Part shown: in pieces, positions 61-52,124 of the stretch
Position numbering within the stretch: position 1 is the first letter of the stretch
Layout: every line of letters starts with the position of its first letter
Virus record (IMG/VR): IMGVR_UViG_3300036791_000069
Span: 1-52,124 of that record
Source: a virus
Length of the DNA stretch: 52,124 nt
Reading direction: 5' to 3' (one strand)
Translations under genes and position numbers: made by a program
Notes under the pieces: generated by a model
Databases searched by the model: none
What the model saw: only the letters and a program-made list of their open reading frames with translations
What the model was told of the DNA's origin: nothing

Positions 61-127
61 AATGCCATTCTCTATTGCATCTGTTGTTGATGATCCGGCT
101 TTTGCGCAGTCGTTCGCTATCACTCGC
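1..127. repeat. Left copy of 127-bp terminal overlap
   Basis: Bases 1-127 are identical to 51998-52124. The overlap runs across the end of one neck gene and the first codons of the next, so joining the ends restores a continuous virion operon. A 127-base exact overlap is what a de Bruijn assembler with k=127 leaves on a circular contig, so I read it as an assembly overlap rather than a biological terminal repeat. The DNA is a complete circle of 51,997 bp, or a circularly permuted or cohesive-ended virion genome. Confidence 0.95.
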
Positions 128-427
128 TCACAAGGTGGACAGTGGAAAGCTGGACGCTGGACCGATGCACAAACGCAAGTGGCGGCATGGGGTTCGATTC
201 AACCACCAAACCCGGAAGAGTTGGAACAGGTTCCCGAAGGTGACAGGGTTCTAGGCTTAATTGCAATTCACACAACCCAAGTAATCTATGAAACGAATGT
301 TGAATTAACCAACGGTATCAGCGATATCGTTACTTGGCACAACTGCAAGTATCGAGTCGTCAAAGTGTACCCTTGGCAGGACTACGGTTACTGGAAAGCG
401 TTAGCAGTACGCATCAGTGGACAATGA
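62..427 (+). CDS. Neck / head-closure-like protein
   Basis: A 121-aa soluble, beta-rich protein. It starts one base after the TAA of the preceding neck gene (position 60 or 52057), without a strong Shine-Dalgarno site, so translational coupling is likely. Its place between the gp10-like neck protein and the tail completion/sheath genes, its length, and a C-terminal half rich in short beta strands (ELTNGISDIVTW, then YRVVKVYPWQDYGYW) fit a head-closure (stopper) or adaptor protein that seals the portal after packaging. That function is inferred from gene order. I do not recognise a named domain with certainty. Confidence 0.6.
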   Translation: MPFSIASVVDDPAFAQSFAITRSQGGQWKAGRWTDAQTQVAAWGSIQPPNPEELEQVPEGDRVLGLIAIHTTQVIYETNVELTNGISDIVTWHNCKYRVVKVYPWQDYGYWKALAVRISGQ

Positions 428-612
428 CAACACCTATCATGAAATATTTCGCTTACGGGCATTTGCCTAAACATCTTCAATCAATTAGTGAAGCATGTGC
501 AGACCTTGCAAACCAGATGGAAGCTGAATTGCCCGATGGTCCTGAAAAGTCTGCTGGATTAAGGAAACTGCTTGAAGCAAAAGACTGCTTTGTTAGAGCG
601 AAGTTGACATGA
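424..612 (+). CDS. Acb2/Tad1 hairpin-like small protein (candidate anti-CBASS/anti-Thoeris sponge)
   Basis: A 62-aa helical protein. The ATG at 424 overlaps the upstream TGA (ATGA); a second ATG at 439 would give 57 aa. An upstream in-frame ATG at 334 lies well inside the previous gene and is unlikely. After MKYFAYGHLPKHLQ comes a helix, then the segment LPDGPEKSAGLRKLLEAKDC. The pattern P-x-G-x-E-[KR]-[ST]-x-[AG]-[LI]-x-K-L-x-E-A followed by a small residue is, from memory, the signature of the Acb2/Tad1 hairpin family. Members of that family bind cyclic oligonucleotides or gcADPR signals and blunt CBASS or Thoeris defence. It is shorter than characterised Acb2 (about 90 aa) and sits inside the virion operon, which is odd. 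It could instead be an uncharacterised paralogue without sponge activity. Confidence 0.5.
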   Translation: MTTPIMKYFAYGHLPKHLQSISEACADLANQMEAELPDGPEKSAGLRKLLEAKDCFVRAKLT

Positions 613-1430
613 CCACCACCTATTATCCCAACGGACTTGTACAAACCAGCACTGCACTAACCCCTTATGACATGGATGGAATCTTTCAACTGCTGATCAC
701 GCAGATGCTTGGTATTGCTGCGAATATTAGCTACGTTGCGCAGTTGACTTATGGTTCCAATGTCATTGTTGGCGATTTGATTGTGTTAAACATCTTCGCC
801 GGTTTCTATGTTGTAGGCAACGGCATTCCACCCAACACGGTCATTACTGGACTTTCAGGACAGGGAAGCAATCTCTTAATTGAATTAAGTAATGCTGCTA
901 CGATATCCGGTCAAGAAACAGTTGGCATCTATGATCCAATTTCAAATACTAGGGTGCGCCAATCGTGGCAAACGGCGGGGATGCCAGCGTATACCATCGA
1001 TGACGATGTTGTGTTTGTGCGTTGTATTGAAACGGATACTGATTACAACACGCTTAGGGATGAAGTAGTAACTGGTAATGCTGATGGAACTGGAACGAGA
1101 ACTAGGACTTATTCACGTCTATGGAATGTTTTCATTCGGGCGCGTGGTCCTAACTCGTTCGATTCAATTAGGTTAATAAAATCGGTCTTGCTTGAAGATT
1201 TCCCGCATGATACTTTAGCGGCGACGAACTTATACATGGTGCCAGCTACTTCAACACCTATTCGCGCACCGGAGCTATTTGAAGGACGTTGGTGGGAGCA
1301 AGTAGATTACAACGCCGATTTCTTTGAGCAAGTAACAGAGACCTTTACTATATCCACTGTTAACAAGCTTGAGATTATCGGGTTTGACAAGAGTGGTCAG
1401 ATATTCGATGTAAAGCCGCAATTAAAGTAG
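609..1430 (+). CDS. Tail completion / terminator-like neck protein with inserted beta domain
   Basis: A 273-aa protein. Its ATG overlaps the TGA of the preceding gene (ATGA). The C-terminal half (from about residue 120: SWQTAGMPAY, DDDVVFVRCIETDTDYN, LWNVFIRARGPNSFDSIRLI) resembles the tail-completion proteins that precede DUF3383 sheaths in contractile phages. That family caps the tail tube and joins it to the head. An insertion at about residues 45-110 has the form GNGIPPNTVITGL ... IELSNAAT, and a related insert sits in the DUF4054-like gene at 50721. Terminator is the best reading from order and size, but a second head-tail connector is possible. Confidence 0.6.
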   Translation: MTTTYYPNGLVQTSTALTPYDMDGIFQLLITQMLGIAANISYVAQLTYGSNVIVGDLIVLNIFAGFYVVGNGIPPNTVITGLSGQGSNLLIELSNAATISGQETVGIYDPISNTRVRQSWQTAGMPAYTIDDDVVFVRCIETDTDYNTLRDEVVTGNADGTGTRTRTYSRLWNVFIRARGPNSFDSIRLIKSVLLEDFPHDTLAATNLYMVPATSTPIRAPELFEGRWWEQVDYNADFFEQVTETFTISTVNKLEIIGFDKSGQIFDVKPQLK

Positions 1431-3993: not shown

Positions 3994-5479
3994 AGCACTC
4001 CGAAGTTACCTCGTGAGTTTAGGCTTTAATGTCCACACCACTCAAGCGGCACAATTCAACAACGCAATTAAGACAGCTTCCCAAATAGTTCAAACCAATA
4101 CAAGTGCAATGGTTATGAACATGGGTAAGCTTAGTGTCGCTGCTGTAGGCATGTTTGAAGCTGTTGGCATTGCCGTGGCAGGAATGGCAGATAAGGTTGC
4201 AAGTGCTGATCAATCTTATCGCCTATTCGGACAACGGATGTTTATGGACACTATGCACGCCAAGCAATTGAAGGTTGCCTTGGATGCACTCGGACAGCCG
4301 TTAGACGCTATTGCTTTTGATCCTGAACTACATCGCAGATTTGACGAATTAGCCAATTTACAAAACCGTTTAGGCGGGATGCTTGGACCGGACTTCAAGC
4401 AAACAATGGTTCAACTCCGGGATGCTCAATTTGAATTCACCCGGTTTCGTGTCGAAGCACTCTATTTCCGTGACTTACTGGTGAAACAAATCTTTCAAGC
4501 ACTAGGCGGCGAGAAACTGACGGAGAAACTTCGTAGCTGGAATGAATACATCATTCAACACATTCCGGAATGGTCTCGCATCATCACCACTTACATTGTG
4601 CCGGTGCTCAAAGACGCGTGGATGATTATGAAAGACTTATGGACTGTTACAAAAGACTTCGCACAACTGTGGACGAACATGATTGGAATTTTAAGCGGTG
4701 ATCCGGCACTAGAAGGAACAATATCCTTTGAGAAATTTGCAGCGGCATTATCAAAAGTCGCTCATTTTATGGCAGTGATTATTGATTTTGCTTCGCACTT
4801 CGCCGGTACTCTTGCCGGTGCCTTTCTTGGATTTCAGATCGGTGGACCGATGGGGGCGTTGATTGGTGCCGGGATTGGTGCCGGAACAGATTTAATTAGA
4901 TCAACCTACCATACGGGCAGCGGTGGTGATCAGGATACCGGTGCTGCCAGTCTTGTAGCAGGAACAGCGATGACGGGAGATTCCGACATAAACCGGATGG
5001 TTGGTGCCGTTGCGAGTGTCGAATCTGGTGGACACCAAATCAATCGTTCTGGTGGCACTCTTACAAGTTCCGCTGGTGCTTTGGGAATTATGCAACTCAT
5101 GCCAACAACAGCATGGCAACTTGGTGTTAATCCCAACAACGCAGCAGAGAACGTGCGCGGCGGCAGGATGTATTTGCAGCAACTTTATTCTAAATACGGT
5201 AACTGGCATGATGCGCTAGGTGCCTACAACATGGGACCGGGAAATGTTGATAGGGCGTTGCGTGCTCACCGTGCGTTTCCATCTTCAGTTGAAGGCTACA
5301 TATCGAGTGTTCAGGGACACTACGCCAAAGGTGACAATCCTATTTCCATTGGCCAAATCAACATCATGCAACCGAACGCGACACCAGATCAGATTGTGCA
5401 AGCGGTAAGTGACGGTATCAACAAGCGGGAACAGTTAGCATCGGCAACTCATTTAAATGAATTAAAACCGGCTTATTGA
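3980..5479 (+). CDS. Tape measure protein with C-terminal lytic transglycosylase (SLT) domain
   Basis: A 499-aa protein directly after the chaperone pair, overlapping the extension by 14 bases. Residues 1-270 are helical, with a hydrophobic stretch near 45-65; residues 270-300 form a glycine-rich hydrophobic segment (AGAFLGFQIGGPMGALIGAG). Residues about 338-440 are a soluble lytic transglycosylase fold: VASVESGG with catalytic Glu348, GALGIMQLMP, and LGAYNMGPGNV. The domain would cut peptidoglycan during genome entry. Using the usual 1.5 angstrom per residue, the tail would be short (about 75 nm); that is inference. No other murein hydrolase was found in the genome. Confidence 0.88.
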   Translation: MADIRALRSYLVSLGFNVHTTQAAQFNNAIKTASQIVQTNTSAMVMNMGKLSVAAVGMFEAVGIAVAGMADKVASADQSYRLFGQRMFMDTMHAKQLKVALDALGQPLDAIAFDPELHRRFDELANLQNRLGGMLGPDFKQTMVQLRDAQFEFTRFRVEALYFRDLLVKQIFQALGGEKLTEKLRSWNEYIIQHIPEWSRIITTYIVPVLKDAWMIMKDLWTVTKDFAQLWTNMIGILSGDPALEGTISFEKFAAALSKVAHFMAVIIDFASHFAGTLAGAFLGFQIGGPMGALIGAGIGAGTDLIRSTYHTGSGGDQDTGAASLVAGTAMTGDSDINRMVGAVASVESGGHQINRSGGTLTSSAGALGIMQLMPTTAWQLGVNPNNAAENVRGGRMYLQQLYSKYGNWHDALGAYNMGPGNVDRALRAHRAFPSSVEGYISSVQGHYAKGDNPISIGQINIMQPNATPDQIVQAVSDGINKREQLASATHLNELKPAY

Positions 5480-16457: not shown

Positions 16458-18464
16458 TTAAGACTTATAGAACGTGAACAACCCGGTACGTTGGTAAGCA
16501 TCCGGTTTCCGTGCGCCAACATGCACCAATATTTCATTTGCCATCGCAACATATTTCTCGTAATCAAGATCAGATGGAATTTCATCTTGCAATTCCATCA
16601 TTGGCTTTCCGCCGTCTGAGTTGGGAACTTTGTTGCCGCTTAGGACGTATTGAATATCTGTTTGCATCTTAGTTGAGTAATACCATCGAATCGTCTTGCC
16701 TAGATACTTACCGCTTTTCTTCGCTCCACCTTTGACGTTTCGCACAATCAGAAAACGGCGAATGTCGTTGCAGCTATAGATGGTCGTTTCAATTGGTGTG
16801 CCTACAGCAAGGAACGCGATTGCTGCATCCGTTGCAACGAACGCTTCAGGGTTGCGCGAAAGCGGGGAATCCCCGGCGCTGCCTCTTTCGGAGAACGCAC
16901 CTTTGACCTTGAAGCTGCCATCTTTCTTAATTGCGATGTAGTTATTCACATCGCGGGAGTAGACCGCCTGATATTCTGTTTCTTCGGTAACAAAGCCGGT
17001 GTTTCGTTCCCACTCCGCGATGATGCCGTTCAAGGTCTCGCGCATTCTGAAGTTACATTCAATTAAAACTCCATCCGTGTTGGCGGATACAACATGGATA
17101 CCCCAACCACGTTGTTCGATCATATCGATAAGCAGCAACAGGCATAGTTGGCCGGTTAGTGTTACTTGGAACAACAGTTCCGGGGCGTAGAGCAGAGACC
17201 AACGATTACCAAGCTTGCCGAATGTGCCGTTGATAGTGATCTTCAACGCATCGGCAACCACCTTATCACCGTTTTTCTTTGCGCTTAGACGCTGATCGAC
17301 AATGCTCTTGTAGACTTCCAAGAACACTTTACCTAGATGGTTTGGACACAATTGTTGATTAAGAATGATGTTAGGATAGTAACTGGCAACGTCTCTGTCT
17401 AAAAGCAAGGTTCCTTCAGTAGCCTTACACGTCTGACTTTTCTCTGTGCTGTGCAGTCCACCGGCACCAATACGGTATGTGCTTCTAGCGATACGCAAAT
17501 CTAGCTTAGTGAGCAAGTCTGGTATCTTCACTGATCCATGTTCATCGATGGTGAAGACTTCGCTTCGGATGATGGACAACAATTCTTGCAACACTTGATG
17601 GTGGTAATTAAGAAATGAAGGTATCTGGTACCTATAGTGTGTTACGGGATTTAAAGGTTTTCGTGGTTCTTGTCCTGTTAACCGTGTTAGCTCGCGTGTT
17701 ATTACACTTTCTGCGATTTGGGCATCTGACCTAGAACGCAGATCAACGTTGTAGAGATTCGATAACTTGTAACGCAAGTCCAGTTGCGGCTTGAGAAAGT
17801 TCAACAGCAGTTCGGTGTTATCAACATCGTTCATGCAATACGTTTTTAATTGTTCTTTCTGATCTAGCGTAAGCATGGACTCTTCGGGGAATGGCAAGTC
17901 TTGCATTCGCTTGCAGTGCAGCCGTCCAGCGTACAGCTTCAATGATCCTATGAGTGGGGCAACCTCTTTAAGATCGATGCTGTTTGTCTGAATAATCTTC
18001 ATCTTGTAGGCTTGCTCAAACTGGTAGGGAGTTAATCCGGCGAAGTGGTCATCTTTCACGATGATCTTGTTTACGAGCGCTTTCAATTGTCCCGGTGTCG
18101 CACCGGTCAACGCTAGCGTGGCAACCAATAGATCAAATCCTTTTGAATTAAATCCAACCATTAGGAAATGTTGCAGAATCCAAGCCATCTTTCCGGTGTC
18201 GAACGGATATTCAAACACTAGGTACTTGCCACTGTTGAAGTGCTTGAACACGAAGAGACAATAGTTAATGTAAATTTCAGAGTCGAAGCAGCACACTTCC
18301 CCGGCAGGGATTGCCATCAGTTCCGCATCAGTCAGCAACGCTCGATCCGGTGTCGTGTAGGCAACCTCAAACGGGTCATCCGGCACCGTTGGCTTCGCTG
18401 GTGGCAGGAGCATGAATTCCGCTGTTTGTGGAGTTAAGAAAGCTTCTTCAAATCCAAACGCCAT
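16458..18464 (-). CDS. Family B DNA polymerase with 3'-5' exonuclease
   Basis: A 668-aa protein, compact for the family. Exonuclease motifs: ExoI CFDSEIY (Asp61, Glu63), ExoII GFNSKGFD (Asn106, Asp111), ExoIII YCMNDVDNTE (Tyr209, Asp213). Polymerase motifs: A DRDVASYYPNI (Asp358), B KITINGTFGKLG (Lys408), C VVSANTDGVLIE (Asp464). Motif C has Asn-Thr-Asp where the textbook form is Asp-Thr-Asp, so only the second aspartate is kept; I remember the NTDG form from other phage polymerases of this branch, and activity is expected. It is the last gene of the minus-strand replication operon and meets the fiber gene tail to tail (6 bases). It would copy the phage genome with the clamp-like neighbour. 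Confidence 0.93.
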   Translation of the reverse strand: MAFGFEEAFLTPQTAEFMLLPPAKPTVPDDPFEVAYTTPDRALLTDAELMAIPAGEVCCFDSEIYINYCLFVFKHFNSGKYLVFEYPFDTGKMAWILQHFLMVGFNSKGFDLLVATLALTGATPGQLKALVNKIIVKDDHFAGLTPYQFEQAYKMKIIQTNSIDLKEVAPLIGSLKLYAGRLHCKRMQDLPFPEESMLTLDQKEQLKTYCMNDVDNTELLLNFLKPQLDLRYKLSNLYNVDLRSRSDAQIAESVITRELTRLTGQEPRKPLNPVTHYRYQIPSFLNYHHQVLQELLSIIRSEVFTIDEHGSVKIPDLLTKLDLRIARSTYRIGAGGLHSTEKSQTCKATEGTLLLDRDVASYYPNIILNQQLCPNHLGKVFLEVYKSIVDQRLSAKKNGDKVVADALKITINGTFGKLGNRWSLLYAPELLFQVTLTGQLCLLLLIDMIEQRGWGIHVVSANTDGVLIECNFRMRETLNGIIAEWERNTGFVTEETEYQAVYSRDVNNYIAIKKDGSFKVKGAFSERGSAGDSPLSRNPEAFVATDAAIAFLAVGTPIETTIYSCNDIRRFLIVRNVKGGAKKSGKYLGKTIRWYYSTKMQTDIQYVLSGNKVPNSDGGKPMMELQDEIPSDLDYEKYVAMANEILVHVGARKPDAYQRTGLFTFYKS

Positions 18465-26808: not shown

Positions 26809-29133
26809 ATGGAAGAACTTACAGGTTACAAAAACTGGGTAGTAACATACCCACACGACAAGATTCCGTTGAATCCCTATACAGGCAAAAGAGCAGATGT
26901 GAACGATCCTCTGACGTGGGGAGACTTCGGAACTGCCGACGCTTGCGTGTCATTCAACAAACATCTGACGTTGGGGTTCGTGCTCACACAGACACCATAT
27001 TCCTGCATCGATTTGGATACCTACAAGACAAAGAATCCTGTCATCATCGACTACCATCGGCAACTGTATGAAGCGTTTCATACCTATTCTGAATTAAGTC
27101 CAAATGGTGGCGTCCATCTTTGGTGCGTGGCGAAGTTAGGGATTGATGGCAAACGATTGCCACAGCAGTTCGTTGAAGTCTACTGCAACAAGCGGTACAT
27201 GACCGTCACCCGGCAATCACTAAACGGCAGCAGAATCGAAGAGCGGCAAAAGTATTTGGAACAGTTTGTCACTTGGTCATCGCAACAGGTTCAGGCGCAA
27301 TTGGCTCAATTTACCAGTGCGCCGGAAGTTGCCAGCGATATCGAAGTCTGCACAATGGCCGCGAACGCGTTCAACGGGGAACTGTTTAGGGAACTGTATT
27401 TGGGTAACTGGCATACGCGTTATCCGTCGCAGTCTGAAGCTGATCAAGCGTTGGTCAACATCATCGCATTCTATACGGACTCGAAAGATCAGGTTGGACG
27501 CATCTTCCATAATTCTGAATTAGGAAAACGTAAGAAAGCACACCGGCAATCCTACTTGTATGATCCGAAGTATGGCATCATCACACGCGCATTCGATCAA
27601 AAGTTGCCAAACGTCTACTTCAAAGATATTCAAGACATAGTTGCAAGTAAGGTTCACGAAGAGGCATTGAAAGCTATCGCTGCCCCGGTGCCAGGATTCA
27701 CTACCACACCACGAAACCCGGATTTAGTTAAAGCAATTCAAAAGCTGCCAGAGTTTGTGAAAGAGGAATTGGATATTAAGTTTGATGATTTCCCCGTTGG
27801 ACTGATGGGTGATATCGCCAAGTTCATTTATCGCAATTCCGTCAGACCAGTAAAAGAGATTGCTATTGCCGGTGCCATTGCATTGATGGCAGGAATTTGC
27901 GGCAAGTTCTACAACATATCTGAAATGGGTTTGAATCATTATATTGCCATTCTCGCACCCACCGGCAGCGGCAAAGAGGGTGCATCGTCCGGGATCAATC
28001 GTTTAGTTAATTACGTTTCCGAAAAGTTTCCAACCATTGGCGTCTTCATTGGACCGGACCAGATCGCATCGCCACAAGCGTTGGTGCGGCATCTGGCGGA
28101 ACCCAATTGCTCTTGTTGTGTTTCGCGCAAGGGTGAAATGGGATTGTGGATTCAAAAGATTTGCGCACGGCATACGAACGACAACAATATTGGATTAAGA
28201 GAAACGTTGTTGAGTTTGTATACCACTTCCGGCAAAGGCAAGATTTACCGCGAGACCATACGCGCCGATAAAGGCAAGGATACACCAGCTATCAAGTCAC
28301 CAGCGTTTTCATTGTACGGGGATTCAACACCGGAAGTGTTCTATGCAGCATTGGATGAGAACCAGCTTGATCAAGGTTTGATTTCGAGATTCACTGTGAT
28401 CGAGTGCGGTCCGGACCCGGAGTACATGTTTAATCCTTTGCATGACAAAATCGAACCTGATCCAAACTTAATTGAAAGAATTGCAGGGATGGCTAAACAC
28501 GTACTGGCAGGACACGAAGCCAGCATGACAATGGATATCGACATGACACCGGAAGCGGCGAAGTGTTTAGACGCTTTTAGAGTGGAGTGCGATGCGAAGC
28601 TATTGGATAATCAGGACTCAGCCGAAGCGAAGGTCTACACCAGAGGGTATGAACGGCTGTTGCGTCTCGCCGGGTTGGTAGCTGTTGGCGTTGATCCGAA
28701 TTATCCCATTGTCACTCTTGATATCGCAGTGTGGGCAAAGAAATTCATATTGCGCAGCATGATCAACGTCATCCTCAAGTTTGAACGCGGGGAAGTGGGG
28801 GAGTCGAATCTATACTTGGAACAACGGGCGGCAATGATCCAGATCATCCGCCACTACTGGAAAGTAGGGTGGAAGGATTCGTATCTTGAACAGTTTAATA
28901 TCAGCAAAGAAATGTACGAATGGAAGATCATCACCCGCAATTATTTAAACAACAAGATTCGCGGATATGCAGCGTTCCGAAAGGCAAGGAACATGAAACT
29001 GGACTTTGACAACGCTTGCATGGATTTAGTTAAGAACGGTGCAATTGTAGGCATTGAGATGGGAAAGATACGCGAGTCATTGCGGACTGGTATTGCATAT
29101 TACATCCACGATGTGACGTTACTAAAGGAGTAG
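26809..29133 (+). CDS. Primase-helicase (prim-pol-like N-terminus, DUF3987-like ATPase)
   Basis: A 774-aa protein. Residues 1-160 resemble a prim-pol domain: YKNWVVTYPHDKIPLNPYTG, GFVLTQTPYSCIDLD (Asp68, Asp70) and SPNGGVHLW (His103). A linker with YPSQSEADQALVNIIAFYTD, the small helical domain found after prim-pol, comes next (about 205-262). The ATPase part has Walker A APTGSGKEG (383-391) and KSPAFSLYGDSTPEVFYAAL, as in DUF3987/D5-like helicases. The protein would unwind DNA and lay primers for the family B polymerase. It has its own promoter, divergent from the rest of the replication genes. Confidence 0.85.
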   Translation: MEELTGYKNWVVTYPHDKIPLNPYTGKRADVNDPLTWGDFGTADACVSFNKHLTLGFVLTQTPYSCIDLDTYKTKNPVIIDYHRQLYEAFHTYSELSPNGGVHLWCVAKLGIDGKRLPQQFVEVYCNKRYMTVTRQSLNGSRIEERQKYLEQFVTWSSQQVQAQLAQFTSAPEVASDIEVCTMAANAFNGELFRELYLGNWHTRYPSQSEADQALVNIIAFYTDSKDQVGRIFHNSELGKRKKAHRQSYLYDPKYGIITRAFDQKLPNVYFKDIQDIVASKVHEEALKAIAAPVPGFTTTPRNPDLVKAIQKLPEFVKEELDIKFDDFPVGLMGDIAKFIYRNSVRPVKEIAIAGAIALMAGICGKFYNISEMGLNHYIAILAPTGSGKEGASSGINRLVNYVSEKFPTIGVFIGPDQIASPQALVRHLAEPNCSCCVSRKGEMGLWIQKICARHTNDNNIGLRETLLSLYTTSGKGKIYRETIRADKGKDTPAIKSPAFSLYGDSTPEVFYAALDENQLDQGLISRFTVIECGPDPEYMFNPLHDKIEPDPNLIERIAGMAKHVLAGHEASMTMDIDMTPEAAKCLDAFRVECDAKLLDNQDSAEAKVYTRGYERLLRLAGLVAVGVDPNYPIVTLDIAVWAKKFILRSMINVILKFERGEVGESNLYLEQRAAMIQIIRHYWKVGWKDSYLEQFNISKEMYEWKIITRNYLNNKIRGYAAFRKARNMKLDFDNACMDLVKNGAIVGIEMGKIRESLRTGIAYYIHDVTLLKE

Positions 29134-47035: not shown

Positions 47036-47245
47036 GTGCCATTAGTACCTTACCAACGTCGCGTGGTAGACGAACTTAATGAACTGCGTCTTAAACTTGA
47101 AAAGCTTAATCAATTCGTTGAAACCAAAACATTCGACAATCTTCCGTTCGATGAACAAAAACGTCTTCTGAAGCAGTCATCTTTAATGTCTAAGTATGTG
47201 GACGTACTTCAAGACCGAATTGTTCATTTTGAGTTAGAGGATTAA
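47036..47245 (+). CDS. Small helical head-module protein, 69 aa
   Basis: GTG 47036 follows the previous TAA closely. YQRRVVDELNELRLKLEKLN, FDEQKRLLKQSSLMSKYVDV and LQDRIVHFELED form a helical hairpin. This QRVVxExxxLxxKLxKLxxF pattern is a widespread small phage protein with no proven function. No clear ribosome binding site; translational re-initiation from the gene before is likely. Confidence 0.75.
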   Translation: MPLVPYQRRVVDELNELRLKLEKLNQFVETKTFDNLPFDEQKRLLKQSSLMSKYVDVLQDRIVHFELED

Positions 47246-51449: not shown

Positions 51450-52057
51450 AGGCGACAATCGTAACATCACAATCCGGAGATATCGACGCCTTTAACGCTA
51501 CTGTAGGCACATTGCAGAATACCGCTGTCTACGTGGGGATTCCGGAAGCTGGAACCGGGCGCAAACGGGATACGATTGGACCACACCAGAAGGCGTATGT
51601 GACTAACGCCGGGTTGCTCTATATCCACACTAACGGTTCTCAATTACGCCACATTCCGGCGCGTCCTGTCATCGAACCGGCTATTGAAGCAAATAGATTA
51701 AGAATTGAATCTCTCTTGCATCAAGCAGCGACGTTAGCGTTGGACGGCAAAAAGCGAGAAGCAAATCACAAGGTCAAGATGTGTGGTCAATTCGCTTCCA
51801 ACGCTGCTAAAGCGTGGTTCACTGATCCACGAAACGGTTGGGCGCAAAACGCACCAGATACGATCCGGCGCAAGCTGTCGAAGTTGAAGCGCAAGGGCGT
51901 GAAGGCAAACAAGAAATGGTTGAATGCCAGAACGCTTGTGAACCTTGTTCCGCAGTACATGCCTCTATACGGCACGACTGCATTAGATTCAATTAACACT
52001 CCGCTTATCGATACGGCGCAACTTAGACGGGCAATCACGTACGTGACGAAGTTCTAA
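51443..52057 (+). CDS. HK97-gp10-like neck/minor tail protein
   Basis: A 204-aa protein from ATG 51443, overlapping the previous gene by 7 bases; the open frame runs upstream to 51179 but that part is a shadow. AVYVGIPEAGTGRKRDTIGP, IPARPVIEPAIEANRLRIES, NGWAQNAPDTIRRKLSKLKR and STPLIDTAQLRRAITYV-like NTPLIDTAQLRRAITYV form the gp10/virion-morphogenesis pattern with an R-P-xx-x-PA and a PLIDTxxLRxxITY ending. It probably joins head to tail. The last 20 codons are repeated at the left end of the window. Confidence 0.8.
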   Translation: MVKATIVTSQSGDIDAFNATVGTLQNTAVYVGIPEAGTGRKRDTIGPHQKAYVTNAGLLYIHTNGSQLRHIPARPVIEPAIEANRLRIESLLHQAATLALDGKKREANHKVKMCGQFASNAAKAWFTDPRNGWAQNAPDTIRRKLSKLKRKGVKANKKWLNARTLVNLVPQYMPLYGTTALDSINTPLIDTAQLRRAITYVTKF

Positions 52058-52124
52058 AATGCCATTCTCTATTGCATCTGTTGTTGATGATCCGGCTTTT
52101 GCGCAGTCGTTCGCTATCACTCGC
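51998..52124. repeat. Right copy of 127-bp terminal overlap
   Basis: Identical to bases 1-127. The gene beginning at 52059 is therefore the same as that at 62-427, only its first 22 codons being present here. Confidence 0.95.

Follow-up and report, generated by a model that had tools for sequence, protein, structure and literature searches.

The window analysed here (the whole stretch of viral DNA, 52,124 nucleotides in length) begins and ends in an exact 127-base terminal repeat (positions 1–127 and 51998–52124), and therefore probably represents a complete genome, either circularly permuted or circular. Near its left end, on the forward strand, an open frame of 62 codons at 424–612 encodes a 62-amino-acid helical-hairpin protein, MTTPIMKYFAYGHLPKHLQSISEACADLANQMEAELPDGPEKSAGLRKLLEAKDCFVRAKLT, which falls in phrog_1761 and phrog_5120 and is a remote relative of the Acb2/Tad1 hairpins. 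Upstream lies a neck or head-completion gene (62–427, forward strand; head protein family phrog_939), whose stop codon at 425–427 is contained in an ATGA at 424–427; a second ATGA at 609–612 carries the start, at 609, of a downstream neck terminator gene (609–1430, forward strand; PF23961). A sheath gene, recognised by a match to DUF3383, also lies downstream of the hairpin gene, and portal, capsid and integrase genes are present in the window. The frame, its two overlapping joints and its neck-gene neighbours are all as described in an earlier note on this DNA. Among the remaining genes, a 774-amino-acid protein (26809–29133) shows a weak match to the HBD domain of NrS-1 polymerase (E 5.3e-7), and a family B DNA polymerase match on the reverse strand (16458–18464) is likewise weak.

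Despite its position, the gene at 424–612 is an accessory cassette and no component of the neck, a conclusion that follows from its absence from related neck regions and from an exact 185-bp insertion seen in comparison with the nearest relative. Searches with the sheath and terminator genes gave 18 loci, 16 of which hold both neck and terminator; the hairpin gene lies between the two in none of these 16, and in 15 they are joined directly, although near-duplicates in the set (e.g. L288 and L289) mean that there are fewer independent cases than the count suggests. In the nearest relative (L291), with 84–89% nucleotide identity to the window, the joint between neck and terminator reads GGACAATGACCACCACC; the window carries 185 extra bases at 424–613 (forward strand), between flanks that are the same as those of L291, with ATGAC bounding the insert on both sides (424–428 and 609–613). 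GC content is 0.418 in the insert, 0.489 and 0.440 in the neighbouring genes and 0.465 across the window, and no promoter-like site was seen within the insert. In the one remaining relative (L299), the slot is filled by an unrelated frame of ~80 codons (4745–5001), and the neck–terminator joint may thus be a recurrent insertion site. A structural or assembly role in the neck, to which the location between neck genes and the translational coupling would lend themselves, is highly improbable given the absence from all 16 relatives holding both neighbours and the occurrence of family members elsewhere in lysis, terminase, baseplate and DNA-metabolism regions. The gene is better described as a small moron-type cassette lodged between two virion genes, its translation frame-coupled to theirs through the ATGA joints.

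The family to which the cassette belongs is large, uncharacterised and found across many unrelated phages and gene neighbourhoods. Relatives were detected by tblastn (E <= 0.01) in 366 of 50,697 phage records; at least 593 IMG/VR stretches encode one (593 of 600 candidates among the matches listed in a pattern search), as do 196 of 269 pattern matches in bacterial and archaeal genomes, the titles of which name Pseudomonadota, Actinomycetota, Chloroflexota, Cyanobacteriota and others. A chance open frame, conceivable for a gene of only 62 codons, is refuted by this conservation, with hundreds of records and identities of up to 75%, and deserves next to no credence. The protein is a member of both PHROG 1761 (E 4.6e-30) and PHROG 5120 (E 1e-25), neither of which carries a function annotation, and a literature search found no mention of phrog_1761, phrog_5120, PF24729, Acb2_Tad1 or DUF7681. 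An NCBIfam search with the hairpin returned sub-threshold matches only, and PADLOC gave no match for the hairpin nor for a PF24729 control, making the PADLOC result uninformative. An N-terminal extension was suggested by the 148 columns of PHROG 1761; upstream extensions were found to recur only between pairs of loci.

Within the family, E41, R47, K48, E51, A52, K53 and D54 never vary in 144 aligned rows, one of which is the window's own copy, but this invariance is inflated because the IMG/VR and genome relatives were fetched by exact patterns, including EKSAGLRK, EAKDCFVR, RKLLEAKD and LPDG[PA]EKSA. The charged residues of helix 2 are nevertheless conserved in a less biased set of 23, made up of the window's sequence and 22 picked from the tblastn matches: counted by eye, E51 is kept in all 23, R47 in 22 (with Q in the other one), and K48, K53, D54 and R58 in 21 each. 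The relative encoded by the T4-like Aeromonas phage phiAS5 (L313:2989–3171) has Q at the otherwise near-invariant R47.

The earlier note had proposed an Acb2/Tad1-like anti-defence protein on the strength of a family signature. Residues 36–55 of the product do carry the quoted motif, but it belongs to the hairpin's own family, whereas accepted members of the Acb2/Tad1 family PF24729 in our set read PxSREKSLAxTKLEEAVMWANA. PF24729 is still the sole Pfam match of the protein, at 16.4 bits (E 0.011) against a cut-off of 27, and is matched at E <= 1 by six of 42 hairpin relatives, again with 0.011 as the best E. Aligned by hhalign with a PF24729 group of 37 sequences (A2, all 37 of which match PF24729), the hairpin family scored a probability of 88% (E 3.1e-6) over 38 ungapped columns that share an LPxGxEKS-KLxEA core; larger alignments gave 85.5%, with 60 column shuffles at or below 13.1%, and the hairpin profile reached at most 1.1% with 60 other phage families as a control. 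A2 in turn matched PDB entry 9ptq ('Acb2 homolog 43'; E 9e-6), for which a literature search found no publication, as well as Tad1 chains (E 0.015) and the T4 Acb2 group (82%). With the 9ptq fragment the hairpin profile itself scored 39.6% (best of 100 shuffles 7.6%); set directly against the T4 Acb2 group it found no match, and against that group joined with the PF24729 group it scored 24%. When the PDB was searched directly by sequence, neither the protein nor alignments A1 and A3 retrieved an Acb2/Tad1 chain. Gp22 of 8jaj, the best match there with A1 (E 0.0017), was set aside once its E value fell back to 0.35 with A3.

Structure prediction bears out the helical hairpin that had been claimed: AlphaFold2, run on an alignment of 42, places helices at residues 4–9, 16–35 and 40–61 with a mean pLDDT of 94, and the PF24729 hairpins (T4 Vs.4, PaMx33 Acb2 and the C-terminal hairpin of Tad1) are likewise short phage helical hairpins. 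Chains 7uq2, 8h2x and 7uav were absent from the 35 Foldseek matches of the hairpin model, and VIA-align gave no Acb2/Tad1 chain among the matches listed of 81 aligned chains. For the model of the PF24729 control (A2), T4 Acb2 (7uq2) ranked first, with a VIA Z of 7.2, an rmsd of 2.3 and 59 aligned residues, and Tad1 third; as Z values of such size are common among helical hairpins, the structural comparison carries little weight for or against. Overall, the predicted structures agree with the profile comparisons. Common ancestry with the Acb2/Tad1 hairpin is therefore likely, though remote, and the family is a sister of those hairpins rather than a filed member.

Whether kinship extends to ligand binding can be approached through residues with a role in T4 Acb2. 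In published work, a change of T68 is described as lowering affinity (PMC12657230), F82 as stacking on the base and Y8 as having a role as well (PMC12657218). The equivalent of T68, a conserved T in A2, is R47 in the hairpin family, with R in 144 of 144 rows. F82 corresponds to position 61, which is L, I or V in every one of the 144 rows, a match that lies past the 38 aligned columns and was made by ungapped extension; A2 also has no aromatic residue there, and the F82 feature accordingly defines T4-type Acb2 only. An arginine near the hairpin turn of Acb2 contacts cyclic trinucleotides, and the turn position is R36 in A2 but mostly P or A (position 40) in the hairpin family. By these positions the pocket of Acb2 has not been retained, which is reason not to file the family under Acb2/Tad1. 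An ordinary member of that family, a hexamer binding the same ligands (cGAMP, cA3 and gcADPR), is accordingly a poor prospect: PF24729 may be the only Pfam match, and an aromatic residue at position 11 (Y, F or W in 138 of 144 rows; Y11 of the hairpin, within an FxYxH motif) could match Y8, although equating the two needs a four-residue gap outside the aligned part, but the score is below the cut-off, the equivalents of T68 and F82 are lost and no structure match was listed. The original proposal holds in part: in its favour are a remote hairpin similarity, seen in the 16.4 bits and in the agreement of profiles with the PF24729 group, and an exchange of domains described below; membership of PF24729 is not borne out.

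A second line of evidence comes from a C-terminal tail domain of ~62 residues, into which five relatives of the hairpin (L063, L066, L067, L266 and L405) extend. In the window the same domain stands alone as a helical protein of 69 amino acids (47036–47245, forward strand; 74.4 bits, the sole match among 972 window frames), which we take to be a candidate partner of the hairpin. A search with the tail domain gave 80 loci. PF13876, to which the proven CBASS sponge Acb4 belongs (PMC11722364), was sought in 26 of these records, mostly chosen for an in-frame head upstream of the tail, and exceeded its cut-off in 12. In ten of the 12 (L406, L407, L409, L410, L418, L423, L430, L440, L441 and L471) it is in frame a short way ahead of the tail, by a comparison of positions made by hand with the frames of seven of the ten displayed; in L408 and L463 it is located elsewhere. 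At L406:4997–5932 a single frame encodes an NLYVF-type head together with a PF13876 domain and the tail domain.

The clearest case concerns L405, which has a hairpin head, and L430 and L423, which have PF13876 heads. Homology among the three covers the sequence immediately upstream of the head, the tail and the region downstream of it, with L405 and L430 having 3,473 bases in common at 95%; L405 and L409 also have similar linker text before the tail. Because flanks and tail are homologous, the hairpin and the Acb4-family domain are alternative heads at one locus. The domain of Acb4 (SPO1 Acb4, N4 gp48) occupies in other phages the same gene position before the same tail as the hairpin relatives do, but is unrelated to the hairpin in sequence: PF13876 was not listed in the Pfam search with the 62-amino-acid protein, and a PF13876 search of the window genome gave no match, with the search control also silent. 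The tail domain is found, too, behind several heads of other kinds to which no function is assigned, and is therefore not specific to sponges.

Chiefly on account of the exchanged heads and the distant kinship with the Acb2/Tad1 hairpin, the best reading of the protein is a counter-defence function exerted through oligomerisation and binding of a host nucleotide-type alarm signal, for which we put the chances at about even; the gene at 424–612 probably represents a new kind of counter-defence gene. The hairpin protein would form an oligomer that captures the signal, and a candidate pocket would comprise the conserved R47, K48, K53, D54 and R58 on helix 2, differing from that of Acb2.

The main rival shares the accessory nature of the hairpin and its Acb2/Tad1 ancestry, but has it bind a protein or nucleic acid of the host in place of a signal nucleotide; it might, for instance, inhibit a host enzyme or be a moron related to lysis or superinfection. 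We regard such a target as a serious possibility, somewhat less probable than signal binding. It draws firstly on the replacement of two Acb2 ligand residues (T68 and F82) and secondly on gene neighbourhoods, for which every count is a minimum, derived from 20 annotated clusters within about 4–5 kb, at loci that are not independent. Lysis clusters lie near at least 27 of 80 viral relatives and at least 20 of 80 genome relatives, against at least one of 80 PF24729 loci, a contrast that may merely mirror the phage types sampled; the interchange with an Acb4-family head seen at one locus also speaks against a target of this kind. Head or packaging clusters lie near at least 35 of 80 viral relatives, at least 32 of 80 genome relatives and at least 45 of 80 PF24729 loci, while other hairpin relatives sit by baseplate genes of jumbo phages and, in N4-like phages, next to genes for thymidylate synthase and exonuclease. 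The idea that a sponge in the virion region would be unusual finds no support in these figures, proximity to head or packaging genes being frequent for the hairpin family and for PF24729 alike; since such placement is common, it does not show the hairpin protein to be virion-borne.

Returning to signal binding, we tentatively suggest a broader scheme, less probable than either of the two readings just weighed, in which the hairpin family constitutes a further widespread class of sponge with a pocket unlike those of Acb2, Tad1, Tad2 and Acb4, and in which heads joined to a common helical tail (fused, or split as in the window) would be swapped at a fixed locus, tracking the signalling of the host. 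If the family does bind signals, a role can be assigned to a very common phage gene, and the signal in question should then be in use among hosts of many phyla. Mutants can be aimed directly at the charged, conserved face of helix 2, and the tail domain, which occurs joined to PF13876 as well as to several uncharacterised heads, is a possible guide to further counter-defence heads.
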